From: Apostichopus japonicus | Lineage: Eukaryota > Echinodermata > Holothuroidea > Aspidochirotida > Stichopodidae | Assembly (NCBI RefSeq): GCF_037975245.1 | Contig: NC_092577.1 | Span: 35,084,898 to 35,148,897, forward strand | Length of the DNA: 64,000 bases | Reading direction: 5' to 3' | In this document: positions 37,801 to 63,344 of the stretch, one piece after another | Numbering within the stretch: the stretch's first letter is position 1 | Layout: every line of letters begins with the position of its first letter | Translations under genes and position numbers: made by a program | The notes under the pieces: generated by a model | The model's input: the letters and a program-made list of their open reading frames with translations, nothing else | Told to the model about the DNA's origin: nothing | Databases searched by the model: none

Positions 37801-40800
37801 GGTTCCCTCCAACAGAGAGTTATAGAAGGGGGGGGGGGGGTAGTGTTAAAGGTCTTTTATCTGTTAAGGGTATCTATTTCTTTTTGGGGAAGGGGGGTAG
37901 TTCTTTTATAGGTGTAAAGGTTATCTATTTTCTTTGATGGGAGTACTCTATTCGATTAAGCCCAAAAGGGTTTCTTAGTTTACTTCCTTTCACATTTTTT
38001 ACTTATTTGCAGTTATATTGTCTTGTTCACCTTGTTATACTATGTGACAAAAAAAATAATAATAAATAATAATAATTTGTAGAGCACAGGGCTTGGTATT
38101 TTGTTTTCTGTCTGGTACAATGTCATGTACAAGATCTTTCGGCGCCCGTAGCTTTCTAAATGCTGTACCACTTTTATGGAACTCCCTCCCTGTTGAAATT
38201 AGGTCTTTAGATTCTATTATTCAAATCAAGCGCTGTCTTAAAACTTTTCTTTTCTCTCAACTCTATTAGTGTTTTCAGCACCCGTAAAGCCCATTGAACA
38301 ACTTTTGTCGGAGTCTTCGCTATATAAGACTAGTTATTATTATTATTACACACCAGCTATCCCCGCCAACAAAGACTTGTTTGTAGGGAACAAGGCTTGT
38401 AATCCTGAGGTCACTGAACGTTCCAATCCAATTCTAGCCCTAAATTTCTTCCATCCTAATAGATAACCACACCAGAGAGAAGAAGCTCCTCGTAGAAGAA
38501 ATTGTGACCTTGAAGAAACAGAACGACATGATACAGCGAGATATCAACGACAAAGAAGGCCAGATTCTCAGCGCCAAACACGAGCTGGATAAAGGATCCA
38601 CATCTCTCTCGTCCGCTGAACATCAAATTCAAATGCTGCAAGCACAGGTAGAGTTATTAAACATTACTAAAATTATTAAATTAAATAATTGTTACCAACA
38701 GGTTTTAGAAGTGTCCATTCTTGTCTCTTGCACATCCTTCCATGTGAAAGCTAAGGAGTGCCACAATGGCATCGCCCACTGAAAACTTGCAAAATTGCAC
38801 CTGTATGACAATTCGCCCATTTTATATAGCATCTCGTTATGTGATCAGGGATGTGTTCACGCCCATCGGTTGCGCCCGGTAGTTCTGAATGCTGCCCAGC
38901 ACAGACAGTATTTTAAACTTTTCCGCCCGGCACTGTTTTCGATGATTAATTTTACCAAATTTTACCGTTACCAAAATATGAGTGCATACTTGGCCCAGCC
39001 ATTAGCTCCAGAATAGGAAAAAGATTAGCAGACATGTTTTGGGAGAGACCCTCACCCCTTAGACCTCTCCCCTCATGACGTGGATCACACTAATCCGCCC
39101 GGCCCTCAAATATTCCTGAGCTTATCCCTGTGTGTAAGCAGATCATACCGGAAAATAACTTATTCCCCGATTCTTGTTCGTGTTTTTTGTTTTTTTCAGC
39201 TCGACCAGAAGACAGAGCAGTTGAGGAATACTCAGCTGGTTCTTGAGGAGAAGAGAACAGATTTGATCAAGACCCAGTCGGGACTCCAGGAGATGGAAGA
39301 GAAATATTACTCCAGCACTGCATCAATACAAGATGCAGCTGTAGCAGATCTCAGGGTAGGCAGATTGGTCAGAGCAATCAAGGATATTATGCCAAAATTA
39401 CTACTTTTTGGGGAAATATGGAAAAAAAATTGATATTAACGTACTGCACATGATGCTCATGTATCAAAAAATGCTGTTTTAATATTTTTGACTGGGACAA
39501 GACATTGAGATGGGGTTTTCAATCATCGTTTTAAAATCGTCAATATGAAATATTTTTGTTTTTCGAATATAAGTGTCATCTTTTCTGCCACTGGAATATT
39601 CCTTTAATTACTGAAATTGTATAACCATCCAGATGGTGAAGATTAACATTCCATTAATAACCAAATAAGGTATGAATACTTCAGTTGAAGAATACCATAT
39701 CATTAGATTCTTTTTCAGCCAGATCGTGAGATCTAGTTGATAAATTGCAGATATTTAAGAGACACAATTCATGCCTGGGGTTTTACTCAAATATCTTATT
39801 AGTATTCAAATAAGGCTTGAATATTCAAAAGGAAACTAATCCTCTGTGTCATTTGACTCATTTCTCTTCTTTTCTTTGCAGCTGGAAATTCAGAATCTGC
39901 AAAGGAAGCTGAAAGAATCGGAGATGTCTGCAGAACATGACCGATACATGAAGTCCAAGGTAATCCATGATAAGAGAGGTTATATTGCATGATAAATGCA
40001 TGACTTCTGAAATAAATGTCATCAGTAATTCCCAAAAAACTATGCTATGATGTCAGTAATGGTCACTCTTGCTCAAACTTCAGTAGGCATTGTACTGCAA
40101 GCTGCAAAGCATTTTCCTCCAAAACACATTGTGACATTGAAAAATCATTTTTAGAAATCGCTAGCAATTTTTGCCACGCCTAAGTCAGAGACCATGATGA
40201 TGCTTTATAGGTCAATGGTATAGTGCCCAGTTTAGCATGCTAAAAAATGCTATAGTATTTTAACAGTACTTCTGTACAGAATGTGACCCATATATTGTAT
40301 TTAAAATTATTCCTTCGTTTATATTTATATTTTTATATTAATATTTAAGCTGCGTCAATTTTATTTTTCATATTCATATTTTAAGGGTTTTGTCATTTGT
40401 TGTCATTGTAAAGCGCTCTTGAACATGCTTTAGCATGAAAAGAGGGCTATATACATCGGGTAAATAATAACTGTTCTAGCATATTTAGGAGCATTAGGGA
40501 TGTTTAATGAAAGAAAGTTACAATCTTTGGATGTTCAACAGAAACTGTGTTAATCAAAATTAACCAAAAATAAGTTATTAGTGAAAAGACTAATGACTGA
40601 TCCATTTTTTTCTTCCAGATGTCAGATGATGTTAATAATTTGATTAAAGAGAATGCCCTTATCAGCTCCCAGAACCTGGAATTACAGAAACAACTAGAAC
40701 GGGTGAGTTAAGAAGCAATATATATATTATATATTGATATATATTACATATATATAATATATACTATATGTAATATATATATATATAATATATATTATAT

Positions 40801-43585
40801 TTTAGTTTTTGTTTTGGACATGCTCTCAGTCAGAGGTAGAGAATAATTTTTGATCTGGTATGGAATTGTAAATTGCGATATTTTTCCTCTCATGGGAAAC
40901 AGGAGAGAGGGCTTCGAGAATCTCGCGACACGAGACATTCGACCAACATCACTGAATTAGTTTCCATAAAGGATCGAGAGAAACATCTCCAACTGGAACT
41001 GAATCAAACCAAGGAGGAGTTGAAAACAGAGAGGGACAGGGTGGCCACTCTCATGCACTCCGTGAGTCCATTCTTCATAGTCACATTTTTTTTTTATACC
41101 TATTTTCCATCTTTACAGGATACTATACAAAGATCACGGTTACTGAACTGTATTACCAAGACTGGATTGCTCAATTATGTGACCATGAAAACCTTCTTAA
41201 CTCCATTATTGTCACAAAAACTATGAATACCAGAGAGAAAGATATTCAAAACTGCCTTACTAGTTTACAAGTTTATTCAATCTCTGTGCACCTCACTCGT
41301 GTGAGGTATGTAGAGTACAAGTATATGGCAAGCCATGTGGGGCAAACACCGCATAATATATCCGCGTATTAATTCGAATATATACGCGTATTAATTCGAA
41401 TATATATGTGTTGTACATGTGTAAAGTTTCGCTTTATGAAGCGATCTCGCGAGCCCGCCAAAACATTTATCGTTGGTATATGTACACAGCAAGAGCGGAA
41501 ATGTGTTTTCGTGTATATTCTAATTAATCCGTGAATATAGTGGATTTAATCCCCATATGTATTCTATTTAATACGTGTATATATTCGAATTAATACGTGT
41601 ATACATTCGAATTAATACGTGTATATATTCGAATTAATACGCGGATATATTCGAATTAATACGCGGATATATTTGGGCCATATGATTGGCTAATAATATA
41701 TACGCGTATATATTCCAATTAATACGCGTATAAATTACGATTAATACGCTGATATATTATGCAGTGTTTGTCCCACATGGCTTGCCATACAAGTATGCTT
41801 ACAAAGTACATATAACTCACCGTTGACAAAAAGAATTAAAAAAAAAAAAAGGTCTTAGCGATGTTGAAAGAAGTACTACAACTTGTGACCATTTTAGCAT
41901 ATCTAGCAATTTTACGTTTCACTCTTTATAAACCCTTTAAACCTGTATATTGAGTTGTAGTTTCCAAATATCAAACTTTAGAGTTAAAGAAAAAATGAAG
42001 TACTCCCAAAATAATTGTTGCATAGATCCACCAAAATCACACCAGGAATAAATGAAATTGGCACAACATTCAAATGGTTGGAAATGAAATAAATAAACTG
42101 GTGGGGAAATCGATTCTTTTGTTTTTATTTTTTTGTATTGGACTACTTAAATTTTCTAGTACAAATTTTTAATTAGGAACTAACAAATGCATAAATTTCT
42201 TTTCCTCTTTAACCTAGTAAATCCAATAGAACAAGAATATTACATGGTGTTTTTAAAAATACAAAAACATTTCAGCAGGTTAGGTCCAGTTTACTAATAC
42301 AATCTTAAAATATTTAACATGTAACATTTTTTTTGGAGGGGGGGGGGTGGTAGTTCTTTTATAGGTGTTAAGGTTATCTGTTTTCTTTGGTGGCAGTACT
42401 CTATTCGATTAAGCCCAAAAGGGTTTCTTAGTTTACTTCCTTTCACATTTTTTACTTATTTGCAGTTATATTGTCTTGTTCACTTTGTTATACTATGTGA
42501 CGAAACAAATAATAATAAATAATAATAATAGTATTAAATCTCTGTCATTTTGAGAGAATTTCTATCAGTGACTTTCACATCAATGAAGCCTTTAACAATT
42601 TTTCTTGTTTCATCTCTCTGTTCTATTTGGTAGTTGACAAAGCAAGAACAAAGAAACACCCAGCTGTCTTTGGGTCAGAACACCAGCAAGAGTAAAGTGA
42701 CTGAATATGAGGCCCGCCTCTCAGCTGTGGAGCAAGAGAACACACAGCTGAGGAGGGATAAGATGCTTCTAGTGGATCATGTGTCTGAACTCCAGAGACA
42801 GGTGAGGAACAATTCAGAGCTTGTTTTGCTTCAAAAAAATGGTCCTTGTTTTATTGCTACATGTAAGAGCATTGAATGGACTTTACGGCAAAGTATGGTC
42901 TTGCAGTGTCATGTAAGGCTCAACAGGTGTCATGTAAGGCTTGACGTGTGTCATGGAAGGCTCAAGGTGTGTCATGGAAGGCTTGATGTGTGTCATGTAA
43001 CGCAGAATGTGTGTCATGCCAGGTCCAATGTTAATTATGCAAGGCTCAACATGTGTCATGCAAGGCTCAAGGTGTGTCATGCAAGGCTCAATGTGTGTCA
43101 TGAAAGGCTCAATGTTTGTAATGTAACACAACGTTTATTATGCAAGGCTCAACATGTGTCATGCAAGGCTCAAGGTGTGTCATGCAAGGCTGAACATGTA
43201 ACCAATAACACAGATATGCTGGTGACTAAATCATTTTCTGACAAATTTCATACTTTTTATACCCTGTAGTGTTCCCCACACTTGGTAACACCTTCCCCTT
43301 CTTTTGCTACGAAAATTGTACATGCCGGCCTTTGTATCTAACTCAGATTTGTCAAAAACTGTTTCTCTTTCTTCGTTGACAAAGGTTTCCCAAAATGAGC
43401 ATGAGACACTTCGCTACCACTCTCACATCAAGACTCTGGAAGGTAAACTGGAAGATGAACACAAGAGGAGTCATCTGGAGATATCCATGCAGTCTCAAAA
43501 ATGGAGCGAATTTGAGAAGATGGCAGAAAGTATGAAGAACCTATCTCGCAGCATGACCGCACGATCAATGTCACCAGAAACATGA
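34849..43585 (+). CDS. Long coiled-coil protein, 12 coding exons, 492 aa
   Basis: Exons by eye: 34849-34903, 35566-35659, 36277-36381, 36543-36621, 37187-37301, 38463-38647, 39200-39355, 39882-39959, 40619-40702, 40903-41061, 42634-42801, 43385-43585. They total 1,479 nt, keep frame at every junction and end in TGA. All introns are GT-AG except the third, which is AT-AC. The N-terminus (MSSISSMARFKNPQKSSG) is polar and Ser/Lys-rich. From about residue 90 (EAEYIKNLQQQIYFLELESN) to about 470 the protein is heptad-rich, charged coiled coil with no enzyme motif or membrane segment. The tail is Ser/Met-rich (NLSRSMTARSMSPET). I do not recognise the orthologue; a cytoskeletal, centrosomal or ciliary scaffold is a guess from shape only. 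Introns 5 and 10 carry LINE-tail repeats and a hAT-like element. The start is the first ATG in frame with exon 2 via a GAA|GTATGA donor; an upstream non-coding exon is possible. Confidence 0.88.
36382..36542 (+). other. AT-AC (U12-type) intron 3 of the coiled-coil gene
   Basis: The 161-bp intron begins ATATCCTTTT, the consensus U12-type AT-AC donor, and ends TTTTCAC. A CTCCTTGAC sequence at 36,520-36,528 matches the U12 branch consensus TTCCTTRAC at eight of nine positions, with the branch A 15 nt before the acceptor end. Removing it joins CT to T, giving ...LELESNFL-RDQARKATD... in frame. No GT-AG pair gives a comparable join here. Confidence 0.85.
37830..38100 (+). repeat. Dispersed retroposon 3' tail in intron 5 (copy A)
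   Basis: GGTAGTTCTTTTATAGGTGT, GAGTACTCTATTCGATTAAG, CCCAAAAGGGTTTCTTAG and CTATGTGACAAAAAAAATAA lead into an (AAT)n tail. A nearly identical copy in the same orientation lies at 42,345-42,530 in intron 10. The tandem AAT end resembles a 5'-truncated LINE or SINE tail. Confidence 0.75.
38132..38269 (+). pseudogene. LINE ORF2 C-terminal fragment in intron 5
   Basis: The frame RSFGARSFLNAVPLLWNSLP, then VEIRSLDSIIQIKRCLKTFL, ends FSQLY-stop. This FGxRSF...LWNxLPxxIR...FKxxLKTxLF pattern is the conserved C-terminus of CR1/L2-group LINE polyproteins. A short 3' UTR and a (TTA)n tail at about 38,335-38,347 follow, the usual end of such elements. The fragment is 5'-truncated. Confidence 0.8.
41325..41788. 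mobile_element. Non-autonomous hAT-like element, 464 bp, ATATACGCG-rich
   Basis: The termini ATGGCAAGCCATGTGG and CCACATGGCTTGCCAT are inverted repeats, and the similarity extends inward to about 50 bp (GCATAATATATCMGCGTATT). Perfect 8-bp target duplications ACAAGTAT lie at 41,317-41,324 and 41,789-41,796. The inside is full of short AATACGCGTATATATTCGAA-type palindromic units. There is no transposase. It lies in intron 10 of the coiled-coil gene; a truncated inverted copy is at 51,615. Confidence 0.92.
42345..42530 (+). repeat. Dispersed retroposon 3' tail in intron 10 (copy B)
   Basis: This is a nearly identical second copy of the 37,830-38,100 repeat: same CTCTATTCGATTAAGCCC core, same TATACTATGTGACGAAACAA end and an AAT tail. 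Both insertions share the gene's orientation. Confidence 0.75.
42896..43200 (+). repeat. Minisatellite in intron 11, ~20-22-bp unit
   Basis: GTGTCATGYAAGGCTCAA-like units repeat about 14 times, with variants GGTGTGTCATGGAAGGCT and CATGTGTCATGCAAGGCT. The array starts about 95 bp after the exon 11 donor. It keeps exon 11's frame open for many codons because the units lack stops in that frame, but this is intron sequence. Confidence 0.85.
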
Positions 43586-48137: not shown

Positions 48138-48359
48138 ATGGATCAAGAAGAAATGGGGACTGGCAGACCCAATCTGTTACGTTCCCTAACGGGTAATATA
48201 AACCATTTCATAGCATTATGTTACTATGTGTATGTTACACGCTTCAGTATTGGTCACCAATCTTACGTTCTTAGGGAAAATGGATTCGTTCCTCGCGAGC
48301 AAATGGAATTCTTTCCCGGACCTACTTTTCGGATCGCCTATTTAACACATATTTGTGAG
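48138..48359 (+). CDS. Alternative first exon A, AIG1/ADTRP-like
   Basis: It encodes 74 codons from ATG (context AAAATGG): a polar start MDQEEMGTGRPNLLRSLTGN, a hydrophobic segment HFIALCYYVYVTRFSIGHQS, then REQMEFFPGPTFRIAYLTHI-CE. The donor is GAG|GTAGGT in phase 0. The Thr of YLT is five codons from the exon end, aligning with FLT of the canonical exons and so with the catalytic Thr. The FFPGxxFRxAYxTHI pattern is shared with exon B, which suggests selection on both. The donor is 13.3 kb from the first constant exon. Confidence 0.72.
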
Positions 48360-51300
48360 GTAGGTTCCCTTACCGATGTAATCATTCGCTTTCCAATTGG
48401 ACGGGTGTGGGGGAGGATAGAGGGATCGCATGTGACGTAGGACTAAATATGTCTAGTAATGTATTTTAGTATTTGAAGTTATGCTTGTTTTTATTATTAT
48501 TATTATTATCATCATCATCATTATTATTATTATTATTATTTTTATTAGTATTATTATTATTATTATTATTGGGGGGGGGGCTCTTGGTCTTGGTCTAATC
48601 TCTTTGACTAATTAAGCTTTAATTGATGTATCTATGTTCCATTTGTTTTTAATTGCGGAACAAATAAGATAATTATTTTTCACCAGGATGGACGGAGGAA
48701 AGTTGAAACCTCTCTCAGGCTGAAAAGGAGAGTATAGGAGAGGTGTACTATACAGCGAAATCAGTGTATATGACATGGGTGCAATATGGCCCCCTGGATA
48801 TTCCTTACTGTTTCAAGGCTACATAATATATCTCAATTCATGACGGATAGTTTGTGGCACCGAAGTCGCGGTCGCGAGGATATGAGGCACCGAAAACGCC
48901 GATTCATCACATTCTTTGCAGCGAATAAGATCCTAGTTTCTTCGGTAGAGATCAGTGTGTCGCTTGTCAGTTTCCAAACCCAGTGCCGCCGGTTAAATCA
49001 CTGCACCAGTGGCAGTTTATACGAAGCCCTACTCCTGTCCCAGTAATATCAGGCGCAGAACTAGACTGGGTTGGGGAAGGGGGCATGGGCGTCAACAGGT
49101 GGGGGACGGGGGGGACATGTCCCCCCACTTTCAAAAGTGGAGGGGATATCATATCATTTGTCCCACCCACTTTTCAGAGTAGTTATTAAAAAAAATCACA
49201 TGCATATGCGCGATTTTCTATTTAAGGTCAAGAAATCTGGACTCCCTGGGCCCCTGCTATCTATCACTTGCACCGTCATTTATCTCCCATTCTCCCAAAA
49301 TCCTAAATCTGCCCATTTAATTCGTTCGGGGGGGGGGGGGGGAGACCATTCGAAAGTGTATTGAATCTTGCACACATGTTGTTTGTATGGGTTCCAAGGG
49401 ATTAGGTAAGCCATACAGGTAGATGGTGATGAGTTACTATGTTCATATCACTACCTCCAGTCCCTTGGACTGGCCGGACGAATAGGGGTGTAGGGGTTAA
49501 GTAATTAAGGCTACATGTATTCGCCGGATATGGCAGATCTTTCTTGTTGAGTGCCGGCTAGGCGCTACACACGCTCTGCGCGCGGTGCCTTTTTCTGATT
49601 ATTATTATTAAAGTACCTGGGCACATAACAACTGACGTCTCGCACCTACATGCATGTATTATATATACCACTCCACTCATCCCGGAGGTGACGGCGCCAC
49701 TTTTTCAATATTTCGTTTGAGATGGACGCTGTGTAATTCGTCTCCCTTGGTGTCAGAACGGCATCTTTCTACCAGTACTTTCTGTCGGAATTTAGTTTTG
49801 TGAGACAAAATTTCTCCTCACAGATCTGGTTCTGATGTAACTAAAAACGACTCAGGAAGGCCGTCTCCTGCGATCTAGGGGGTCTTATGTACCCAAAATT
49901 TTCTGAAACGCTACGCGCCAACCAATGGTGGCGCTCCGCTTAGATAGTATAGTGTCCCCCTCACTTTCTGAAACCTGCTGACGCCCATGGAAGGGGGAGG
50001 AGGTATTCACTCCCTCTTTACCTCATACAAAGATTCAACATTAGTTATTAGCACAACCTTGTGCTTAGATGATAGATCTCCCTCCTTCACCAACCCCAAC
50101 CGCCACCATTCTGCATATGGTATGCAAGTATCCTTGCTTCTTGAAGTCATTGAGATGGTAACGACATATGATTAAACGTAGCATATGTTGGAAAGCATAC
50201 GGAAGTAGGAATTGTGAAATATAGAAACGTGTCAAAAGCTTTCACTTCAGTCAGTCCATTTAGTTAAGAACTTTTCCCCTGACTATGGAAAACTCATGCC
50301 GATTCACACCACTCGCAACAACCATGAACCGCTGCCTAATCGAGGGCGACATTGCAAAACAGTTTGTAAGCTAGTGTCCTTCGGAAAGCACGTTGTAAGT
50401 ATAACGATCATATACATGTATACGGTATCGAACAGCAGCCGTTATATGCATGGTAATACAATAGTACATGTTTGTAATCGAAGTATGTTATCCAGGTAAA
50501 GCTGTTTGACACGCGGATCAATAGTATCTGCAGTTTATACTTCATTGAACACAGAGCTGTACATAAGTTTCATGTAAGCGGAAATTGAATATTACATTGA
50601 CTGGCATCAGCAAATGGTGAACTCAGAAAAGTCACGATCGTAAAAATGGGGAAAAAAGGCACTAATCCTAAGCAGAGCCGGAGATCGGGCGGCTTGAAGC
50701 GTCAAGTGCAAGATCAAGATCGTGGCTTCGGAAATCCAATGTATTTGGGACGCCGATTGTTGCATTTTGTAATATTCTGTTACTATTTGTTTATAAATAT
50801 CTATGATCTTGGCTACGAAGCCGTACTTTTACGCGACCGTGGTCTGGTTCCGCCCGAACAGGTGAAGTTTTTCCCAGGGATTTTGTTCCGTTCCGCATAC
50901 ATGACACATATTAATCAGGTAAGTCGACCCCACGAAGGAAGCACATAATATATATATATATCACACATGTATTCCACAGGCATGATCAACTGGATGGTTT
51001 TGAACTTCTGATATAAAATAGGCTCATCTCACTGTGTCGTTGGTTTCGCATTACTTAATTCTCCCGCCTGAACACTCTCGACCCCTCCCCCCTTTTTTTT
51101 AAATAACAATTAACTATCAAGCACTGTACACTTAAGGCCTACATTCAAGCTTTCAGAAGAATATGTTATCACTAAGTAAAAGTCAGTATAAAGTATCATC
51201 TTATCAAACAGTTTCTATTCAAGTGTGGTTTGAAAGAAAAAAATCGACCAATTTATAGCCGCCCAAGAAAACTACACATAACATATGGTCATTGTTCTGG

Positions 51301-54300
51301 TACACTCTGAAGTCTTACCCCTAGTCCCAAGTTACCCTGGGGGAGGGGTGGAGGCTGCAACATCGATCGTGATTATGAGGGTCACGAAGGTCAGTATTAC
51401 GATGCCTTGCATATCACGGATATCGTAAAGTGGCAATTGCAAGTAGCCTACCCGACCAAAGTAGAGCGTGGCCTTGCAAACAAAACAACTTCAATGATCT
51501 ACTCTTCTCCATCCGAGGTGCCTTTTGAGGGTGTGACCTTGCGTTTATCGGTGCTAAAGGTCGAATTAATTAAGTACGGTCATTTAGAAGGGTAGTACTC
51601 GAGCCTACACGGATATGGCAAGCCATGTGGGACAAACACTGCATAATATATCAGCGTATTAATCGTAATTTATACGCGTATTAATTAATTGGAATATATA
51701 CGCGTATATATTATTAGCCAATCATATGGCCCAAATATATCCGCGTATTAATTCGAATATATACACGTATTAATTCGAATATATACACGTATTAATTCGA
51801 ATATATATACACGTATTAAATAGAATACATATGGGGATTAAATCCAATATATGCACGGATTAATTAGAATATACACGAAAACACATTTCCGCCCTTGCTG
51901 TGTACATATACCAACGATAAATGTTTTGGCGGGCTCGCGAGATCGCTTCATAAAGTGAAACTTTACACATGTATAACACATATATATATATTCGAATTAA
52001 TACGCGTATGTATTCGAGGAACGTATATATTATAGGAACTGTTATGCCTAATGTTATCAGTCAAATAACAAGACCGTATAACTCTCTAATATCTCAATGT
52101 AGCCAATGTTCACAGTTATGTAATAGACGCATTTTATATCCGCAGGCTACACAAGCGTTTTGAGTATACATGTGTAGGGTACTTAATCGGGTTAACTAAA
52201 TATGTAGTTTGAACCCTTCGAATTTCCTCGATTCATTTGATTTTAAATTACAGTGAAACCAACACAAAGTACCATATGGGTTCGAATGATCGAGATGATA
52301 ACCTTTTCGAACTTTGCGCAGCACTTCTCCAGAAATAGATTAAAAGGAACAGGTTCGCAAAAATATATCCAACTTTAAAAATAAATGATAAATAAATGAA
52401 TGAATGAATGAATGAATGAATGAATGAATGAATGAATGAATGTATGAATGAATGAATGAACGAACGGACGGACGGACGGACGGACGGACGGACGGACGGA
52501 CGGACGGACGGACGGACGGACGGACGGACGGACGGACGGACGGACGGACGGACGGACGGACGGAGGGATAGAGGAAGGTACGGACTGACGGGCAGCGGCG
52601 GGCGGGCGTATGGAAAGCCATTCTAACATTTAATCGGGAATAAAAAACTGAAGACACAAACACTCAGACCCGATTACAATGCTTAAAGTGCTTGTCCAAA
52701 GCATTCTTAAACCCATTGACACTATTTGCAAGTACAACTTTCTCAGGCAAACTATTCCACTCATTCACAACCCTATTAGAAAAAAGTTATGCCGAATATT
52801 AATCCTACATTCCTACTATGCGACTTTTGAAGTTTAAGACAATGACCTCTAGTACAACTACTGTTTGCAAACATGAAAAAGTCGGTAAAGGATAAATTGT
52901 CGAAACCATACACAATCTTGAAAACCTGGATCAAGTCCCCACGTAACCTCCTAAGCTCCAGTGTGGTGAGATTCAACAGTTGTAACCGCCTATAATAAGG
53001 AACCCTCTTTAAGGAACTAATCATCCTAGTAGCCCTCCTCTGGACCTTTTCAAGTACTTCTTAATCCTTAGCAAAATAAGGGTTCCAAGCCTGCACAGCA
53101 TATTCCAGATGAGGCCTAACCAACTGCTTATAAAGCCTAACTACGATGTCCTCTTTCAGAAAACTGAAGTTCCTCTTGATCATACCTAAATCCCTATTAC
53201 CTCTTTTAGCAGCTTCAAGACAATGTTTTTGTGATTGAAGCCTGTTTGGTATTAGAAATTTACTTTATGAAATTTATCATATAATTGACTAACACTTCTA
53301 TCGCTACTGTTTGATTGATCCAGCAACGTCACAATGGAGAACATCCCATAGTGGGTGGGTTTGAAATAGTACTCAAGCCCATGCACGCACAACTGACTCG
53401 GATTCTTTTTCACATTATAATTAATCACGTATAAAATTGAATCTTGAATATTTAAATATGTCTTACATTCACTTGTTGAAAAGAAAGTTGAATAGTCAAG
53501 CTAAATAACTTGACCACGCCATGGGATTTGAACTGAACAAATACGTTGATGTTTGTTTGTTATTCCTATACTGAATAATGGTCACCACTTTAGCATATAC
53601 CACGAACTGCAAGATGTGTCACATTCTGGAGCTTCCTGAGCAAGATCATAATTTACCTTGATTGAGGGCTCTCGACTAGGTATAAATGTTTGGATCAAAC
53701 AGGCTGTGAGAAGGAACCAATTCATGAGTTTTGTTTACAGTTGCATCCAGGCGCGCGGTTAATATGTGTGTATATAGAGCATGCGCAATGGGATGCATTG
53801 TAACGATCTCAGTGATAACTTACCATTGATAAATAAATTGCTATACCCTGTAATTAGGAAAGTAATATACGAAGAGTCAATAATTAATCGTTTATACAAA
53901 TATATGTTGTGTAAAAGTAAGTGGGCCTGACGTACGTTTCGATCCTTGCAGGATCATCCTCAAATATATATTGCGATTATATTTTCTGATGTCTTGTCTT
54001 TTCTTTCCTTGGTTTTGTCTTCTCATATCGGGAGTTCCCCTCGATTGGGGTCCCTGCATGGGCCTGTTTATCCATCTAACCTACTCGTAAACCCGGCCCT
54101 ATAGTCAAATTTATATACAAATCTACTCCTGGTCATATCAGAAGAGGATAGGGAATGGTACAGCTTTGACGTGACCCCATTCCTCCTTCCCAACCCTTTC
54201 CCCTTAACCCCCCTCCCCTCCCCCTCCCCTCCCCCTCCCCTTCCACCCTTAGTAACGCCACCGCGATATATGTCAACGATATCTCCTTAACTGTTACTAT

Positions 54301-57300
54301 GGAAACGGTCGTGCCGTTATCGTTGAACTATAAGTGGTTAACTTCTCCTACTATTAAAATCTGAATGTGACTTTGCTTATACTATGCGTAAACAAAACCG
54401 AGAACAAATGATGACATTTGACCTCTTGAACAATGTATTCGCAGCGATTAAAATTGACAAGAGCCACTAGTTATATTTACACTAGTTAAACGCCTGTGTT
54501 AACCCATCTGTTAAAGCCTGTATATACATACTGAAGTCGTAATACATGGGAACGCTATGCAGCTACGTATTTGTATCTGTTGTATGACGTTTTCAGGTTG
54601 TTCTCGTAGAAACAGCCAGAAACATCGATGCCACGTTGTGTTGTGAGCTGCAAGTCATCCGTTTTGCCTTGTAGGATATTTGGTACCGTACTGTTGTCGA
54701 AGATTGCGCAATCGGGGTCATAGTTCAACACATGCAACTCGGACCTTTTTGACCTTCGTTTTCATCTTAAAGTAATGTATTAATGTGTTACTCGGCGTAG
54801 GTTTACATTTACCTGCTTACATATAAATCCCTTTGGAGTTATTTTTGGGATTTTTGTCGACGCCTATTTGACACACTCCAATGGACTGAGAGAAGTTCAC
54901 CTCTCCACTTGATTTGTGAGTGACTTCGCAGCCATAAATATTGAAGTCTTCACAATATCTTGCAACCTATTCAGCAAGTAACCATTTTTCCAGGTACTGT
55001 GTTTTCTTTTAAATCCGGGAACTTTTTGTCAAAAATCAAAACCATGCAAAGACGAGAAGAAGCGGTAACTATCGACTTGGATGAATCCATACCGTCCAAG
55101 GCCGGTACCGCCGATATCAATGGCCATATACCGCGGTCTGGCAATCACAGATTAACAGCATGGAAAGTACTGCTGGGGTTAACACGGTTCGTGTTTCACA
55201 TCGCGGCTTTCAGTTTCTATTTAAGAGCGATATGGGTGGACTGGACACATTACTCACCGGTATTAATCGATTACGAACTCGTCAACGAGCAGATCCTCGT
55301 CTTTTTTCAAGGATCGATATTTTACAAAGTCTGTTATATTTCAAATATCTGTGAGGTAAGTATATAGATCGTCACTGCATGAATCTATGTTAAGTAATAA
55401 CATTTACAAGGGAAATTCCCAAATCTAGACATCCCATGTAAACAAAGTTTCGTTGTCACGTGGTCCATGTGCATACTTTGTGTTTTGTCGATGGTGCATA
55501 CGTATCTGCTCTATTGCAGTTTTATGGTTTGATGTGATCAAATTAAGGTCCTTATCTACCCTCACCTGCCCCCCCCCCCCATCCCACCCACACACGCACA
55601 ACCCCTCACCCTCCTGATATCGATGTGGTTATGAAGAATGCCCCAAAGTCTATATAGAATGCAATTCATTATTGTAATTAGTTTGTTGTTATTCATACAT
55701 CTTCTTTCAACCATATGCTGAAAAATGTTATCTCTGCTTTCTTAAATTATAGTCTACTGTCACCCACGTATACACCACACACAACACCTGAGCCTCCTTT
55801 ACCTCTTTGATGCAGATACCTATACTAGGTCCACGTCAGTGGTGTCGCCAGACATTTTAACCTGGGAGGGGGCACAGCCCGCACAGGGAGGGCTCATCAA
55901 TAAATTAGGGCGGCATAATGTTTATTTGTGAATGCCGTCCTGGGGGAGTGGTCTAATGGGAGGGTGCTTCCCCCTCCCCTTTGAGAAAGGTTGATGAATC
56001 AAGGGTATTAAGGGTCCTTAGATGCAATCTGGTGCTATATTTTGCAACTTTAATTAACTTTAATTAAGTTCAAGAATATTAGTCTGTCCGATATTTATGT
56101 TTTTAATTGAGGCGGATAAAAAAGTTATACAAAATATTGAAATTAACCCTATTGCTGATAATATTTTTTAAATAAGAGTGTTGAAAATTGTAATTGAAAT
56201 TCATGCACGGTAGTAGTGAAGTTTAAGTACTAGCGATTCACGCCGGGGCCTCTATAGGGAGAAAACAACTGGTTATTGTGACGGTCGGTGGAAAGAAGTT
56301 TTACTGAGGAACATAAAACGTTTCGCTCTTTGTAAACAAGTTTTTGTTTGAGTATTTTTTTAACACTACAAATCGCATCTGTGGCACCTGGGGGGGGGGC
56401 ACGATTTTTGTTTGGGAGGGCACGTGGCCACTCCTCTTTGAGAAATGTTGGTAGAATCATAAAATGGAGGTTGCTTGGATACAAAATGGTGCTATTTTTT
56501 TGGGCAACTTTTGAAACAATTTTCTACTTCTAAAGTTGTACCGCACATAATATGGTTTTTACACTAGACATATTTTATTGTAATGTTCTGTCTGCCAATG
56601 GGGAGGGTAGCCCACTGAGGGAGGGGACGGGTTAAAACCCCCCCAAAAGTATACGTTGGAAGTTGCGCCCGTGGTATAGCCTCTTCCTCACATGACGAGG
56701 GATTGTGTTGTAGTGTGCATATGTACATATGATTTCATTCACGTCAAGTTAACAGTTTGTATGTTTTTTAATATATCTTGCTACGAAATGTCAAGTTTAA
56801 TATATGACGGTGACGAAGAGGTTGTTGCTGTTGTTATATGATGTTGTTGGTTCGCTTATAATGCATGTATATAACACCAGACTAGGAATGGACTACAAGC
56901 GAATTGAAACTGGTTTATTTCAGTCATGTTTGCTATCATATGAGTTTCTCTGGATATCGGAGAGATTCGATGGTTTTTTAAGATAAAATCTTTGGTTTGA
57001 CTTGTATCGCCACACACTTATGATACCAGAGTTCCAAAGGCCAAGGGTACCGCCTGCACGCTCCCTGTAACAAGACAATCGAAAACCCAAGAATTTTTAA
57101 CCCGAATAGACTGGTCTTTGGTCCTTTCATGAAGTCAATCATTCGTCGAAGATAATTCCACACCGCGGCATTTGTAAATCCAGTTATGTCTGTATCGTCA
57201 CGTCCTAATGAATAACTATGTAGAGTTTTATGTAGGCCTATGTTGCACATATTACTTCGGTCCAGTAAGCCTACAGGGGGCCTAAGCTATATTCGCTAAA

Positions 57301-60300
57301 TTTACTGAAGTTTTCAACTTCTCATGTGCATGAGTGAACAAACTTAAACTCTTCTATACCTGTTTACATTGTCCATAATGAAAAACAGCCGCGGAAAGGA
57401 AAAAGTGAACACCGGTTTACACCGTCACGGACATATCGCGATATTCATTTGGTATGTGTTCGTAATTACTATCGATTGGATATACTTTACACCGCGATTA
57501 ATGTTATTTTCTGACGAAAGAAAACACTTTTTGGAGTTCTTCCACTTTTACCTTTGTAATTTGGCGTTTTTAACCAGCATAAATACGGTAAGAAAGAGAC
57601 TGTTCTTAACATCGTTAAATTTTGTGTATTGGTCGCATGCTTTTGCACACGTGCGTACGTAAGGAGGGAGAGGGGGGTTAGAGGGGTGACATAACACAAA
57701 GTGGGGGAATCTTGGGGATACTTTTGGCACTCAGTCGGTGGAACCTAAGGACCACTCTTCCATTATCTCGTCAAAACGTCAATTTTTTGAGGTTTGTCAC
57801 GTTACCATCTCGTCAACTCGTCAATTTGCAGATAATTGTCGTTTTGTCAAGTTGGTAACTCGTCAATGCAATGTCCTTTCTACGCTTCCGTACCATACTG
57901 TTAGATCAGGGACTAGTGATTCGGCTTTGATCGCTGAAACAGTACGTTGTCTGCAGTCTGCATTCTAAAAGTTATCCTAATCCTACCGTATTGTCAGTTA
58001 TATTCAGAGTGTGAATCTTCATATTATTAATGTTGATTTCTGAAGAAAAAAAGACATAAAATACAATTGGTTGAACGTAGTTTGAAATTCTCGGCGTATG
58101 TACAACTACTTTTTTCACTAACGTTAGAATCCTCCCAGACACAATGGCAGCTACCTCTGTCACTGCTACCATCTTTCATTTTGGACTTGTCTGGTATTAT
58201 TTTTACACATATTACCATTATACCATTACTTTTGAACCATCTCTTCGACAATTTCGTCCAGATACATATGGTGGTTTGTGGAAGTTCCTAACCTTCTGGG
58301 GATTGGTAAGACATCCTTCATGTAGTAATTGTTAAGAAGCATGTTGTAGATCGTATCACAAGCGCATGCTACACTCGTTACTTCGTTAACGTGCGTTGCT
58401 CAGTATACAGCATACGGAAGTGTTCTTCGATGATCTGGGAATGCCGTTGTTTCTTGCTTTGCTTGTTACTTCGTTATCGATATTTTTTGACACCTGGTTG
58501 TTATAGGAACTTCATTGTATCTTCATATTAATTTAAAAAAAAAACTATTGGCAAATTGTTGAGGTCTATTTTGTCCTGTGCGAGTCGAGTCGAGACGAGT
58601 CGAGGTGGCTTGTTAGCCTTGTATTGTAGCCTAACGGTATTTTAATCTGCCCAGGCCTAGACTAGAACTAAAAGTTAGGCCCAAGTAAGATAACTTAGCA
58701 CTGCCAATGTTAGCAATTTAAGTCTGTAAAGACGTTACAAACGTGTTATGGATAACGTGATCACGAACGTAACGCAAAGATTGGACTAGGCTAAGCCTAG
58801 CAAGAACTCAGATTTTGTTTATATATTTGTATATCCTAGGCTTAGTATTATTACAATGCTTACCAGTCAAAACGTCCCTTTACCAAGACGTCCCTGTACC
58901 AAAACGTCCCCGCTTTTGGTCAAATCGTCCCCGTTGGTCAAAACGTCCCGTAAGTCAAAGCGTCCCCATCTAAGACATTCATTCACAGTTGTTAATATAT
59001 ATTAATTTTAAGTTATTATTTGGCTATGTTATCGGCATGCAAGTTGGATTACAGGCCCAAAATAAATCATGAAGGACTATATATCATTTAGGGCAGGGAC
59101 AGGAAAGGGGGCTGGGGCTTTAGCCGTAGTCCCCCTTCTAGACCATCAAAAAATACCAACTCGTGTTTAGAAAAAATCCTTTTACCCTACAGCCCTCTTG
59201 CATTCCCTTTTCTTGTATCTTACTGTACCTCAGAAAATTATACTCAAAAATGTTTCCGCCCTCATACCCAGCACTTCCCACTCCTAAAAACTGTGTTTTC
59301 AACCTAAACTATACTTATCCTTACTCTTTGATTTGAACTAAAAACATCCACACTTGCATTCCAACTGATTATAAAAGCGGGGACGTTTTGACTGCGGAGA
59401 CGTTTTGGTAAAAAGCGGGGACGTTTTTGGTCTTAAAAAAGCGTGAACGTTTTGGTAAAGGGACGTTTTGACTGGATACCATTACAATACTAGTTGTTAT
59501 GTCGTGAGTCTGTCGTGTATATAATATGGGCTACAGTACATTAAACTAGGCTAGGCCTGGTAACTCTCGGATTAACACTCGGATTAACACTCAGATTAAC
59601 ACTCGGATTACTTGTACTTACTAAGTATGGATGCACTAGTTTATTTGTAATGTCTGGTAGCATGATGGTGTGTATATAAGCTACGATTTTCAAAAAAATC
59701 AATTTCACCAAAAATTTGTAGTTAATAGTGACCAACGTGTCGAGACAATGAATAAAACCTACTATATTATTTCTAAAATAAGCATTCAGTATCATGCAGG
59801 ACAGTGAGCAACAAGTTATCTTGAATACTTAACAGTAAAAATGTTGCAGAATGGAACTAATGCATAGTGGTACACATGTACATCAGTGTTTGACACAATC
59901 CCTCACTGGCTTGTGGACACCTCCCCAAACATGCTGAGTCATCGGTGCATAGTACCGCTTACAGTTATATTATATAAAAGACATGACCAGTTAATTTCTC
60001 AAAAGATCTCAAATTGAGAACATAATTGATTTGTACCCTGTTCAAGTCAAAATCATTAATTATAAGCACTTGGATTGGCTCAAATGAGACCATCATTTGC
60101 TACGCTTAGTACATGATTTATTCTACCTTTGATTCCTGCATCTATAGATCTGTTACGGTTGCATGACCTACCAACAAATCATTGCTACCATTGCAACAAT
60201 TCCTGCCTGGTTTTCGTCCTGTGTGTTTGCTCTTTTGCTGATAAAGTTGAGATTATTTGTAAACCTTGATATGTACTTTATCTTGAGTTGTTTACTTTGT

Positions 60301-63300
60301 ATTCACATGGAGAGAGGTGTATGTCTGTTTTTAAGATATATGCCATTGCTGTGTATACGATGGCAGCCATTTTATCTTCAATATTAAACTTAGCCACTCA
60401 GTACAGTATCCTAGCTATAGCTACAGTACATGTACATTTTGTGTAGAGTATATGACCCTGTTAAACATACATGTACAGTTTATCTGTTTTTACATTAAAC
60501 TGACTTCACAAATCCACTACCATCTTTGCTTTCTGGAGATAAAGAGGTTTAATTCTGTTTTTCCTGTGGTCGTGGTGTGAGATTTTTGAATGGTAAATTT
60601 CTGATTTAATACAGTACTTCAGTTGCTTTGTATCCTGATTTGATCTGTGGCTTGGATCTCGTCTGGTGATTCTGGTCTGGTCTGGTTAACCTCTTCGTCA
60701 GTCATTTTGGATAAAAAAACAGTTCAACAAGACATTTCAATATGGCTTCTGCCTCGTCTTTTATATTAACTTTGTTACATTTGGCGATATCGTACCATTA
60801 TACCATGACCTACTGGATATACATAACGGATACGAAACAGCGATTGCTCGCCGTGCGACCGTATACCTACGGCGGGGAATACAAATTTTTCACAATATGG
60901 TGTCTGGTAAGAATCAGAGAAAACAAACAGCTACTGTTTAAGCTGACTTAAGTGATAAGTCAGAATTTTGGTATTAAAGAGTAACCATCTCCTATTCAAT
61001 TTGGTCAGTTAATATTTAAAGATATGTTGTTTATAAATATTTTTGATATTCCTGAAACTAACAGTAGTAATTTTGTTCACAGAACATATCACCCCAGTGG
61101 TTAAATTTGATATATGTTTGATCGGATTGTTTTAAATATCAAATGTATATGAAAATTTGCCAAATTTACAATCTAAAACTACAGTACATTCTCTGCTGTA
61201 TAAACTTGCAGTTTAACTTACTGGTTACAGTGTGTTTTCCTCAGCCTGAAAATATCAAAATACAAGTGATAAGAAAGTTAAATGATAAGTGAAAAGTAAT
61301 TATTTCTTTAATTTATGAAGAGTAAGATTACCTTTAGATGCAGGGGGGCTTTTTTGAACATATTTCTGAGCTTATTTTTCATCGGCTTACGACACAGGTT
61401 TTGTAACTGTAAAAAAAGACAGAAAAGTAATCAATGTTTGAGGTATGGCACAGAAAAGGCACAAAAGGCATCAGTGAATCAGAAACAGGTCGACTGTTAG
61501 GTACCACAATTGCTAACCAGAAATCCATGATTGTAGTACAACAGGTCAGACAGACCTTCTCTGCATTTCCCAAAGGAAGTATCACGTTTGTGATATGAGA
61601 AAAATAAGTTCATTCTTACTTCTTTTTCCATTTTGTTATTTTTATTTCTCCAGATTTTGCAGTTAGTATATTTCTTCTGGTCTTGCATAACTGACATGGT
61701 ATCGGCGTCTGCACCACATAGCTCAGCAGGAAGGGCAACTGTAGCTTTCAGAGATTGGTTCCTGGCCGCAATAGTCTTCCCCATTGGTTCTGTAAGTCTT
61801 TAACTATTTGTATTTCTCTGGTAGACTTTAAGGCTGGACTTAGAAAATGGAAGTGGGGAGGCTTGGAGGAGGTGGGGGTGGGGGGGGAGAGGAATGTGGG
61901 ATGGCAGGTATGAAAGAGAATAAAAGGGTGAGAATAACAAAAAGGGTAAAACATATATCAGAAAGATTACTTGCCTTGAGAAGCAAACTATGCAGTATAG
62001 TGTATACAGGAATCCTTATGTAGTAGGACTGGACGTTGTACGTACAAATGTTGTTCTCACAAAAATTGCGCAAGTTCCGGGCAGTTCTGTTTAAATGGCT
62101 TGGAGGGGATGGGGTGGGGGGGAGAGGGGTGTGGGATGGAAGAAGGAGGGTAAGAAAGAGAATAAGAGGGTGAGAATAACAAAAAGGGTAAAACATCTAT
62201 CAGAAAGATTACTTGCCTTGTCGAGAAACAAAATATACAGTATGGTGTATACAGGAATCCTCATGTAGTAGGACTGGACGTTGTACGTACAAATGTTGTT
62301 CTCACAAAAATTGTGCAAGTTCTGGGCATTTCTGTTTTACATATTAATCCATTCATTGTTTCTCTGTGTTTTTCCTTTCTCAACAGTTGGTCGTTATAAC
62401 CTTTTGGGCGATTTATGGTATGAACAGGGAGCTCATCTTTCCGGCGGCACTTGACGAATTCTTTCCAGCCTGGTTAAATCATGCTTTGGTAAGTCATGCA
62501 GTATTTCTATGAGGGAATCTAAAGGCACCAGTTCAAGAAATGTCTAATGTTTAGATCATGTAACTTCAAGAATCTTGTTGATGCTATCGACCAGCCTCTC
62601 ACCCGATTCTATCAAGATATGAAATTATTGACATTTTGTGAATTTTATCGGGGAACGTACAAAGCCCAACTATTGATATCAGTGAAGAACAAGACTTCAA
62701 AAATGCTTTTGTAATTCTTTGGGCACTTTGCCGTATGCAGGCTTGCTAAGAATCTTATCAGGGTTAATTTTGAACTGTACCAGACAAAGAGACAATTGAC
62801 AGCCAGTTGAGTTCCTTTTTGGTGGATCTTTTTCCACCTTAGCCTTAGGGAAGTACCGCCTTGCTTCACTCCATACCCTGTATCTTCCTTAACCTGGGCT
62901 GCACTCACCCCCTGAGGGTGCAAGGCAGGGCTCCATGGGTGCAGATTTATAGACATAAACAACAAATTTATGCACAAAACAATAATAGACAGCAGGTGAA
63001 GTTTTTGCAAAATTATGTTTCCATCGGTTAGGGATGTGCAAGTAGTAGAAAAGATAAAAAAAATCCTGCCCTACAAACACCCAGGGCAAGAGCTTTCAAT
63101 ATTTGTCAATGTTTTTGCTATTTGGACAATCTCAGAATATCCTTCATAATTTTCTAAAATAGATAAACAATGTCTCTTTGTTGTTCCTTAAGTGATTGTT
63201 CCCTTATGTTTTCTCTTTCATTTCACAGCATACCTTTGTTCTCCCGTTGCTTCTTATCGATATGTTGCTGGTGAAACATAAATATCCTTCTCGGATAAGT

Positions 63301-63344
63301 GGAATCCTCGGTGCTGTAGGCTTTGCTCTTTGTTATCTAGTATG
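48138..63344 (+). CDS. AIG1/ADTRP-family membrane hydrolase locus with six alternative first exons (3' end beyond window)
   Basis: Three constant exons (61654-61791, 62387-62488, 63229-63344) encode the second to fifth membrane parts of an AIG1/ADTRP (FAR-17a) protein. Matches include TVAFRDWFLAAIVFPIG, FWAIYGMNRELIFPAALDEF and AWLNHAL-HTFVLP. Vertebrate family members are multi-pass membrane proteins that hydrolyse fatty acid esters of hydroxy fatty acids using an intramembrane Thr and a His. The His of HTFVLP is in the third constant exon; the Thr lies in the variable first exons at 48138, 50646, 55044, 57378, 58144 and 60742. All six end in phase 0 and the constant exon begins in phase 0, so each could be spliced to it. 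No second copy of the constant exons was found between 48,360 and 61,653. The last exon or exons lie beyond 64,000. Alternative reading: upstream units are remnants of tandem genes. Confidence 0.85.
50646..50918 (+). CDS. Alternative first exon B, AIG1/ADTRP-like
   Basis: It encodes 91 codons, with a long basic N-terminus (MGKKGTNPKQSRRSGGLKRQ), a hydrophobic segment RLLHFVIFCYYLFINIYDLG and the end VPPEQVKFFPGILFRSAYMT-HINQ. The donor is CAG|GTAAGT in phase 0. It is the closest relative of exon A (H-F-x-x-x-CYYxx, V-P-x-EQ, KFFPG, FRxAYxTHI), so the two are recent duplicates that diverged mainly at the N-terminus. Thr is five codons from the exon end. Confidence 0.75.
51615..52015 (-). mobile_element. 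Truncated inverted copy of the ATATACGCG hAT-like element
   Basis: It begins with the same ATGGCAAGCCATGTGGG terminus and reads as the reverse of the 41,325-41,788 element (AGCCAATCATATGGCCCAAA, then GGCGGGCTCGCGAGATCGCT in order). It breaks off near 52,015 without the other terminus. It lies between first exons B and C. Confidence 0.88.
52385..52563 (+). repeat. Compound microsatellite (TGAA)n then (CGGA)n
   Basis: About 18 TGAA units (52,385-52,460) are followed by about 24 CGGA units (to about 52,563) and a decayed CGG-rich end. Pro-Ser-Val-Arg and Ser-Phe-Ile-His frames on the minus strand are repeat artefacts. Confidence 0.97.
52640..53240 (-). pseudogene. LINE polyprotein C-terminal region, minus strand
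   Basis: Read on the minus strand from 53,240: DIVVRLYKQLVRPHLEYAVQ, AWNPYFAKD, a stop, then EVLEKVQRRATRMISSLKRV, YYRRLQLLNLTTLELRRLRG and DLIQVFKIVYGFDNL. A frame change precedes NEWNSLPEKVVLANSVNGFK. This is the C-terminus of a CR1/Jockey-type LINE (LVRPxLEYAxxxWxP and LExVQRRATRxI). The in-frame TAA and the frame change show it is dead. Confidence 0.87.
53925..53960 (+). repeat. Isolated Penelope-like terminal motif
   Basis: GGGCCTGACGTACGTTTCGA followed by TCCTTGCAGGATCATCCTCA matches the motif at 14,490 with a 4-bp insertion. No element body is recognised around it. Confidence 0.5.
54555..54737 (-). CDS. Possible short coding segment, unrecognised
   Basis: A minus-strand frame includes LHVLNYDPDCAIFDNSTVPN, then DDLQLTTQRGIDVSGCFYEN, and ends YKYVAA-stop. 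The composition is protein-like and not repetitive. No ATG opens it near the observed N-terminus, and no neighbouring exon is evident on that strand. It may be a last exon, a decayed retrocopy or chance. Confidence 0.15.
   Translation of the reverse strand: MHVLNYDPDCAIFDNSTVPNILQGKTDDLQLTTQRGIDVSGCFYENNLKTSYNRYKYVAA
55044..55355 (+). CDS. Alternative first exon C, AIG1/ADTRP-like, Ser at the nucleophile position
   Basis: It encodes 104 codons from ATG (context AACCATGC). The N-terminus is long and acidic/polar (MQRREEAVTIDLDESIPSKA). The hydrophobic segment is LGLTRFVFHIAAFSFYLRAI, and it ends QILVFFQGSIFYKVCYISNI-CE. The donor is GAG|GTAAGT in phase 0. In alignment from the exon end, the Thr of the other five exons is Ser here (YIS). 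FFxG-xxF and NICE/HICE tie it to exon A. The frame is open upstream to 54,960 but has no earlier ATG. Confidence 0.72.
55852..56672. mobile_element. Probable hAT-like element(s), boundaries unresolved
   Basis: CAGTGGTGTCGCCAGACATT at the left and GTTGCGCCCGTG at the right resemble this family's termini. TTAGATGCAATCTGGTGCTA at about 56,020 is the reverse complement of sequence inside the element at 19,566. GC tracts and a second, related block (about 56,370-56,500) suggest two nested copies. I could not find an 8-bp target duplication, so the limits are guesses. Confidence 0.45.
57378..57587 (+). CDS. Alternative first exon D, AIG1/ADTRP-like
   Basis: It encodes 70 codons from ATG (MKNSRGKEKVNTGLHRHGHI). 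The segment AIFIWYVFVITIDWIYFTPR is hydrophobic, and the exon ends FFHFYLCNLAFLTSINT with donor ACG|GTAAGA in phase 0. The Thr of FLT is five codons from the exon end as in A, B, E and F. It is shorter than A-C and the most divergent in the middle. Its frame extends upstream to 57,369, but only with a TTG codon. Confidence 0.7.
58144..58305 (+). CDS. Alternative first exon E, canonical AIG1/ADTRP type
   Basis: It encodes 54 codons (MAATSVTATIFHFGLVWYYF...), ending RPDTYGGLWKFLTFWGL with donor TTG|GTAAGA in phase 0. TYGGxWKFLTF is nearly identical to the human AIG1 segment that contains the catalytic Thr (T43), and exon length and boundary agree with that protein. With exon F it represents the ancestral first exon type. 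The ATG context is good (ACAATGG). Confidence 0.88.
58858..59480. mobile_element. Element with arrays of AAAACGTCCCC at both ends, 623 bp
   Basis: Termini GCTTACCAGTCAAAACGTCC and GGGACGTTTTGACTGGATACC are imperfect inverted repeats. Perfect 8-bp target duplications ATTACAAT lie at 58,850-58,857 and 59,481-59,488. Each end carries five or so direct AAAACGTCCC(CGC) repeats, inverted between the ends. The inside lacks a transposase. A degenerate inverted relative is at 31,556. The 8-bp duplication suggests hAT-like mobilisation. Confidence 0.87.
59489..60741. other. Inter-exon stretch between first exons E and F
   Basis: It is mostly A/T-rich unique sequence. Four CTCGGATTAACA-like repeats lie at 59,565-59,610. 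A frame at 60,163-60,387 is hydrophobic but lacks the family motif and a matching donor. The promoter of exon F should lie in the last few hundred bases, but I see no clear TATA box. Confidence 0.4.
60742..60906 (+). CDS. Alternative first exon F, canonical AIG1/ADTRP type
   Basis: It encodes 55 codons (MASASSFILTLLHLAISYHY...), ending RPYTYGGEYKFFTIWCL with donor CTG|GTAAGA in phase 0. It shares TYGGxxKFxT, length and start (MA[AS][TA]S) with exon E and is closest to the constant exons (748 bp). It is therefore the likeliest default first exon. Thr is five codons from the exon end. Confidence 0.88.
61654..61791 (+). CDS. Constant exon 2, AIG1/ADTRP family
   Basis: It has 46 codons in phase 0 at both ends (acceptor TTTCTCCAG, donor TCT|GTAAGT). 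It encodes ILQLVYFFWSCITDMVSASA (membrane segment 2 and the following loop) and RATVAFRDWFLAAIVFPIGS (start of segment 3). RDWxLAxxxFPxG is a family signature. Hydrophobic and loop lengths agree with human AIG1, although the loop here is shorter. Confidence 0.9.
61853..62335 (+). repeat. Two ~240-bp tandem copies within intron 2
   Basis: Unit 1 (about 61,853-62,094) and unit 2 (about 62,096-62,335) share GTGAGAATAACAAAAAGGGT, AGGACTGGACGTTGTACGTA and CAAATGTTGTTCTCACAAAA in order, at roughly 90% identity by eye. Each unit begins with a G/A-rich tract. Confidence 0.9.
62387..62488 (+). CDS. Constant exon 3, AIG1/ADTRP family
   Basis: It has 34 codons in phase 0 at both ends (acceptor CTCAACAG, donor TTG|GTAAGT). 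It encodes LVVITFWAIYGMNRELIFPA, then ALDEFFPAWLNHAL. The FWxIYxxNRELIxP...LD...PxWLNHxx stretch is the most conserved block of the family. The exon ends just before the catalytic His. Confidence 0.93.
63229..63344 (+). CDS. Constant exon 4, AIG1/ADTRP family, carries catalytic His
   Basis: The acceptor is TTTCACAG; the first codon is CAT, the His equivalent to AIG1 H134 in HTFVLP. HTFVLPLLLIDMLLVKHKYP, then SRISGILGAVGFALCYLVW, covers membrane segments 4-5, with the family motif YPSRxxG. The donor TATG|GTAAGT splits a Trp codon (phase 2). The remaining exon or exons, about 70 residues in relatives, lie beyond the window. Confidence 0.92.

Follow-up and report, generated by a model that had tools for sequence, protein, structure and literature searches.

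A probable variable-first-exon gene of the AIG1/ADTRP family in the sea cucumber Apostichopus japonicus, with tandem first coding exons and a single constant body

How can six beginnings of a membrane hydrolase lie in a row upstream of only one body? This question is raised by a 64,000-nucleotide stretch of the genome of the sea cucumber Apostichopus japonicus (contig NC_092577.1, positions 35,084,898 to 35,148,897; the whole of this stretch is referred to here as the window), in which an earlier reading, hereafter the original prediction, proposed that six AIG1/ADTRP-type first exons share one catalytic body. The current analysis indicates that the locus is very probably one A. japonicus AIG1/ADTRP gene with tandem alternative first coding exons, termed A to F. 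Transcription would most likely start separately upstream of each first exon, and the chosen first exon would be spliced across a phase-0 intron to the sole constant exon 2, whose acceptor lies at 61654. The isoforms would differ in their N-terminus, in their first transmembrane helix and in the presumed Thr nucleophile, which lies five residues ahead of the junction (position -5), and would share the body that follows, which bears the His residues. The components are the following, with a slash marking the exon end in each donor and E denoting the expectation value.

48138..48359, plus strand: first exon A (class I), 74 residues, Thr at -5, donor GAG/GTAGGT; identical to residues 1-74 of P0001 (isoform X3 of A. 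japonicus) and recovered by leave-one-out profile
50646..50918, plus strand: first exon B (class I), 91 residues counted from the first ATG, Thr at -5, donor CAG/GTAAGT; leave-one-out profile, and 89% identity with the N-terminus of the A. japonicus model P0005
55044..55355, plus strand: first exon C (class I), 104 residues, Ser at -5, donor GAG/GTAAGT; leave-one-out profile, and a relative, P0004, in which a C-type exon with Gly at -5 precedes a Holothuria-like body
57378..57587, plus strand: first exon D (class I), 70 residues, Thr at -5, donor ACG/GTAAGA; leave-one-out profile (E 1.5e-7), the support coming from the window itself
58144..58305, plus strand: first exon E (class II), 54 residues, Thr at -5, donor TTG/GTAAGA; equals residues 1-54 of P0003 (isoform X5)
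60742..60906, plus strand: first exon F (class II), 55 residues, Thr at -5, donor CTG/GTAAGA; equals residues 1-55 of P0002 (isoform X4), with the same type in Holothuria leucospilota P0006
61654..61791, plus strand: constant exon 2, 46 codons, phase 0 at both ends; present in P0001-P0003
62387..62488, plus strand: constant exon 3, 34 codons, phase 0; holds the first His of the invariant NHxxH motif (His152 of P0001)
63229..63344, plus strand: constant exon 4, 116 nt; starts with the second invariant His (His155 of P0001) and ends within a split Trp codon

Do these sequences have the qualities expected of first coding exons? All six ends (48359, 50918, 55355, 57587, 58305 and 60906) are directly followed by GT in phase 0, an in-frame ATG lies upstream of each, and the residue five codons before the end reads T, T, S, T, T, T from A to F, exactly as had been claimed; A to F are homologous first coding exons lying in tandem, all of them with an ATG and with a donor in the same phase. 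Matches of the donors to MAG/GTRAGT amount to 7, 9, 8, 7, 6 and 7 of 9 positions, and the donor of exon B is the sole 9/9 site out of 3,825 plus-strand GTs. Additional, later in-frame ATGs are present inside exons A, B, D and F. The further claim of one hydrophobic segment per exon holds for five exons, with hydropathy maxima (KD17) of 1.31-2.01, and in a weaker form for exon A, where the maximum is a moderate 1.04 and a helix is predicted at residues 13-47. Searched singly against Pfam, exons A, B and C gave zero matches, exon D gave only a sub-threshold COX1 match (0.0044), and exon E matched PF04750 at 7.7e-4, below the curated cut-off.

The constant exons are far easier to recognize. Each of exons 2-4 carries a CAG acceptor and a GTAAGT donor, and exon F joined to them matches PF04750 (Far-17a/AIG1) with E 8.1e-41 and 140.2 bits, the cut-off being 24.5. 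A profile search of 3,512 six-frame segments of the window recovered a single exon 2 (E 1.8e-26), a single exon 3 (1.9e-23) and a single exon 4 (5.3e-24), while the next-best segments for these profiles scored 0.25 or worse. No second exon 2-4 set was found in the window by these exon-wise profiles, nor by tblastn with the full body, for which the next match had E 0.64. This agrees with the original prediction that the only acceptor exons of the family lie at 61,654-63,344 and start in phase 0, and the search for missed constant exons that it called for, made with family profiles over the window, found none. Private downstream exons for A-D are rejected within the window, as body tblastn and four exon-wise profiles over the same segments found none; the window holds a single downstream set of constant exons. 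Exon 5, the last coding exon, was likewise not found in the window by profile (best segment 0.86). In the intron that follows constant exon 2, two adjacent and similar blocks of ~230 nt (85-93% alike) occupy 61865-62337.

Are the first exons actually joined to this body? A query of exon A plus exons 2-4 equals P0001, "androgen-induced gene 1 protein-like isoform X3 [Apostichopus japonicus]", at 100% identity and 100% query coverage. P0002 (X4) consists of F plus the body and P0003 (X5) of E plus the body, and the 181-residue body is identical in all three, as is the length of the contig from which they derive (37,207,079 bases). Another A. japonicus model, P0005, joins a B-type exon to the body. 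Over 92 positions its B exon shows 9 substitutions and 1 gap relative to that of the window, the comparable body residues (46 + 87) being identical, and just one copy of B was found in the window by tblastn. The difference could reflect either an extra B-like exon in another haplotype or an unusually variable exon. For exon C, the relevant protein is P0004, an uninterrupted 318-residue frame on a contig of 1,821 bases, in which a C-type exon is joined to a body identical at 180/181 residues to that of H. leucospilota P0006, itself F-type. Because so short a contig spans the exon junction, P0004 suggests an origin from spliced RNA, a retrocopy being the alternative. The claim of several first exons on one body is therefore borne out in computed A. 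japonicus models for A, E and F and indirectly for the B and C types, whereas a junction to constant exon 2 was found for D in no outside sequence.

One could object that the isoform models are an annotation artefact, produced by software joining the first exons of neighbouring genes to one body. The X-numbered isoforms are computed models, and P0005 does contain 21 non-matching residues in the place of exon 3. However, no alternative body exons were found in the window, P0004 is uninterrupted on its short contig, and the same switch point recurs in sea cucumber, Holothuria-like, two starfish and one shrimp set, all of which makes an artefact barely credible.

The starfish and shrimp sequences raise the question of how widespread the layout is. 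In the family protein search, the 7,997 candidates sharing most words were scored and 26 matches were listed. Among these, Patiria miniata isoforms X2, X3 and X4 combine three different N-termini with one and the same 183-residue body, and Asterias amurensis X2 and X3 have an identical body (183 residues) and two different N-termini. The starfish isoforms differ only ahead of the same junction as in the sea cucumber gene; X2 is class II-like in both genera, whereas X3 of both and Patiria X4 are closest to class I. In the shrimp Palaemon carinicauda, P0024 and P0025 (X2 and X3) change at the same point with the Thr kept in both, and they differ a second time at the C-terminus, 170/174 compared body positions being equal. 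Since the shrimp has two isoforms that change at this point, N-terminal switching in the AIG1-like family extends beyond echinoderms at the level of protein sequence. In both groups, the switch point presumably corresponds to an intron. No sea urchin or crinoid proteins are among the 26 matches listed, which is uninformative about those groups.

Are the six first exons of one kind? Leave-one-out profiles recover A (7.1e-13), B (2.8e-17), C (6.3e-11, with P0004 also excluded) and D (1.5e-7), and no window segment beyond A-D falls below 0.05. Because each was found by a profile built without it, the likeness of the class I exons is beyond chance. In a tree of 20 first exons, from which P0005 (a near copy of B) and P0009, P0013 and P0014 (short N-termini) were omitted, class I (A-D, P0004, Asterias X3 and Patiria X3) is split from class II with support of 95/92, although 11/17 inner branches are open and D forms a long branch; none of 500 label shuffles was equally clustered by class. 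A class II profile made without sea cucumbers finds E (1.6e-10) and F (1e-5), and a profile of four starfish N-termini, independent of the window exons, finds B (8.2e-6) and C (1.3e-4). Class II resembles the N-termini of the hemichordate, the fish and most of the arthropod sequences sampled. Class I is a second type, also present in starfish, which was apparently multiplied through exon duplication in the sea cucumber lineage.

A less favorable view is that A-D are what is left of tandemly copied genes whose bodies were lost and are now silent, only E and F being real. The missing database support for D would fit this view, as would the presence of class I, among the proteins sampled, only in echinoderms. 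Against it, no other body exons were found in the window, the frames of A-D are all open with usable donors, and A occurs in isoform X3, a B-type exon in P0005 and a C-type exon in P0004, with class I isoforms in two starfish genera besides. Furthermore, the proportion of synonymous differences (pS) exceeds that of nonsynonymous differences (pN) in all five paralogous pairs compared (e.g. A-B 0.70/0.40 and E-F 0.96/0.42), where the synonymous divergence (dS) is large or not computable, so that pS and pN show direction only. Silent remnants are accordingly very improbable, and we return to A-F as alternative first exons of one gene.

What, then, would be exchanged along with a first exon? ADTRP T47/H131 and AIG1 T43/H134 are described as required for the hydrolysis of fatty acid esters of hydroxy fatty acids (FAHFA) (PMC8123165). 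At position -5 from the junction, Thr occurs in 22/24 N-termini, Ser in one (exon C) and Gly in one (P0004), the 24 consisting of exons A-F plus 18 proteins from the searches, once P0001-P0003 had been dropped as repeats of A, F and E. P0010, P0021-P0023, P0026 and P0027 are left out of these counts; the N-terminus of P0010 ends RCKYLTHLDL, with T at -5. We take this Thr column to be T43/T47, presuming so from the family motif and the human sequences. The conserved N-terminal Thr of PF04750 is present in A, B, D, E and F, and C carries Ser. The NHxxH motif is invariant in 20/20 aligned proteins, with its two His encoded in constant exons 3 and 4, so both lie downstream of the junction whichever is the numbered catalytic His. 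The original prediction that the intron divides Thr from His is thereby upheld. The Thr and the junction have been inherited as a unit, so that the exons do not count as separate instances of it; the -5 Thr/Ser site is one inherited position rather than six coincidences.

In the predicted model of isoform A (six long helices; mean predicted local distance difference test score 69.2, a moderate confidence), a first helix spans residues 13-47 and the junction, at residue 74/75, falls within the second helix (62-93). A sequence-profile search with E values allowed up to 10 found no PDB chains, and the model had no fold matches at E <= 0.001. By the known biochemistry of AIG1/ADTRP, isoforms with Thr are expected to hydrolyse FAHFA-like lipids as membrane enzymes. 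The notion of six nucleophile-bearing N-termini fits the five exons with Thr and is doubtful for C: given the Gly of P0004, C-type isoforms may lack the usual nucleophile, and their hydrolysis may be altered or absent. We infer tissue-specific use of the isoforms, their lipid substrates and an effect of the swap, which would most likely tune location, substrate entry and place of expression.

What lies upstream of the first exons? Strong acceptor-like sites are absent from the 400 nt upstream of B, D, E and F, a test passed by the acceptors of the constant exons in 3/3 cases, and they are present upstream of A at -145 and of C at -369. Such sites occur window-wide at 1.22 per kb, or ~0.5 expected per 400 nt. 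TATA-like words were found within 500 nt upstream only for A (-270) and C (-222). These data bear upon the possibility that A-F are cassette exons served by one upstream promoter and a common non-coding exon, with no promoter for each. The sites at A and C would be their acceptors, and the isoform proteins are uninformative on 5' ends. Nonetheless, four of the six first exons have no such site in 400 nt, and two of six equals background. Moreover, the frame upstream of C is open to 54945 and a short stretch there resembles the extra N-terminus of P0004, so that the C transcript seems to be unspliced upstream of its ATG. We consider the cassette arrangement improbable, and separate starts for each first exon remain our preferred reading.

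Several results weigh against tandem alternative first exons as set out above. The X3, X4 and X5 isoforms are computed database models, and isoforms X1 and X2 are absent from the protein matches obtained. A search with A+B+C+D as one joined query (536 candidates) returned only P0005 and P0001, with no A. japonicus protein carrying C or the exact window B and no D-type protein; the search missed P0004 as well and is therefore non-exhaustive. In the 400-nt upstream stretches, no exact words were shared above control, whether 7-mers in at least five of six, 8-mers in at least four, or 9- or 10-mers in at least three (0 each; control means 0.07 to 1.56). The Gly of P0004 contradicts a nucleophile in every first exon. 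Concerning the classes, the four-starfish profile is non-significant for A (0.12) and D (1.2). One of its four rows, P0014, has no clear class in pairwise tests, and without it the values become 1.3e-4 for B, 6.5e-4 for C, 0.39 for A and 1.9 for D, with an unrelated segment (0.18) outranking A. Pairwise shuffle tests mostly agree with the class split, but not cleanly: Patiria X3 scores z 4.9 with the class II protein P0006 and only z 1.2 with C, exon D reaches z 6.0 with the fish protein P0018, and Palaemon X3 cannot be assigned clearly to either class.

Several further features occur in the window. Its first 14 kb (1-13988) are taken up by 60.9 copies of a 230-bp satellite with 97% matches, and a second array at 20936-22861 (8.4 copies of 229 bp) contains part of this satellite in opposite orientation, as judged from comparing the consensus units by eye. 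A Ty3/gypsy-like element with reverse transcriptase, RNase H and integrase domains across several frames lies at 23183-27021. Upstream of the cluster, several coiled-coil-like frames at 39080-43269, one with a weak Pfam match to Cast (0.0033), perhaps belong to a different gene. An inverted repeat at 58846-59492, which lies between exons E and F, contains CAAAACGTCCC-like units, similar to units at 31566-31660, and may be a small mobile element.

What would such a gene signify? Since every isoform has the same body, nature provides a set of chimaeras that could reveal the role of the first helix and the Thr, and whether Ser or Gly at that position alters or abolishes activity. A bolder proposal, which we regard as possible but doubtful, is that promoter choice exchanges the active site itself, so that a single His-bearing body would be combined with Thr, with Ser or, in nucleophile-less isoforms, with Gly. 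If true, a tissue could switch one membrane scaffold among different lipid hydrolases and a catalytically silent form, the latter perhaps lipid-binding or dominant-negative, and the arrangement would date far back among echinoderms, with crustaceans having either retained or reinvented it.

How does the locus compare with known systems? The original prediction knew of no such layout in this family, and we found no description of alternative first exons for AIG1/ADTRP among the listed titles and abstract beginnings of the open-licence literature. Nevertheless, such isoforms are already present in the public automatic annotation of sea cucumber and starfish, and the novelty is one of interpretation rather than of record. 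The vertebrate FAHFA hydrolases AIG1 and ADTRP have in common with the sea cucumber gene PF04750, the Thr ahead of the junction and the invariant NHxxH. In a vertebrate family survey, however, the members are grouped as separate genes and alternatively spliced sequences were excluded (PMC8394805), which would have hidden such isoforms. Elsewhere, three ADTRP isoforms are given as described, plus four computationally mapped (PMC8123165), and one AIG1 contig is listed for Holothuria scabra (PMC7838161). A further parallel is in starfish, whose AIG1-like isoforms (Patiria X2-X4, Asterias X2-X3) share the switch point, an identical body within each species and N-termini like both classes, although two or three forms are seen there, from proteins alone, as opposed to six first exons in A. 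japonicus. The layout is real and, by protein evidence, shared with starfish, but it is not categorically new.

Variable-first-exon clusters are described for UGT1, GCNT2 and the clustered protocadherins (PCDH) (PMC1885805), and the likeness to the latter two lies in this layout. GCNT2 and the protocadherins belong to families unrelated to AIG1/ADTRP, and no shared upstream word was found for the sea cucumber first exons. Clustered protocadherins also have far more first exons. The vertebrate UGT1 (UGT1A) locus has tandem variable first exons with their own promoters and common downstream exons (PMC1885805, PMC3325998); the promoters of the sea cucumber gene are presumed. UGT1 encodes a glycosyltransferase, whereas the sea cucumber variable exon encodes a short membrane segment with the presumed nucleophile, and because of this the sea cucumber gene would exchange part of its active site. 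The variable-first-exon layout occurs here in a Thr-hydrolase family, and it is informative in that what is exchanged includes a residue on which catalysis presumably depends.

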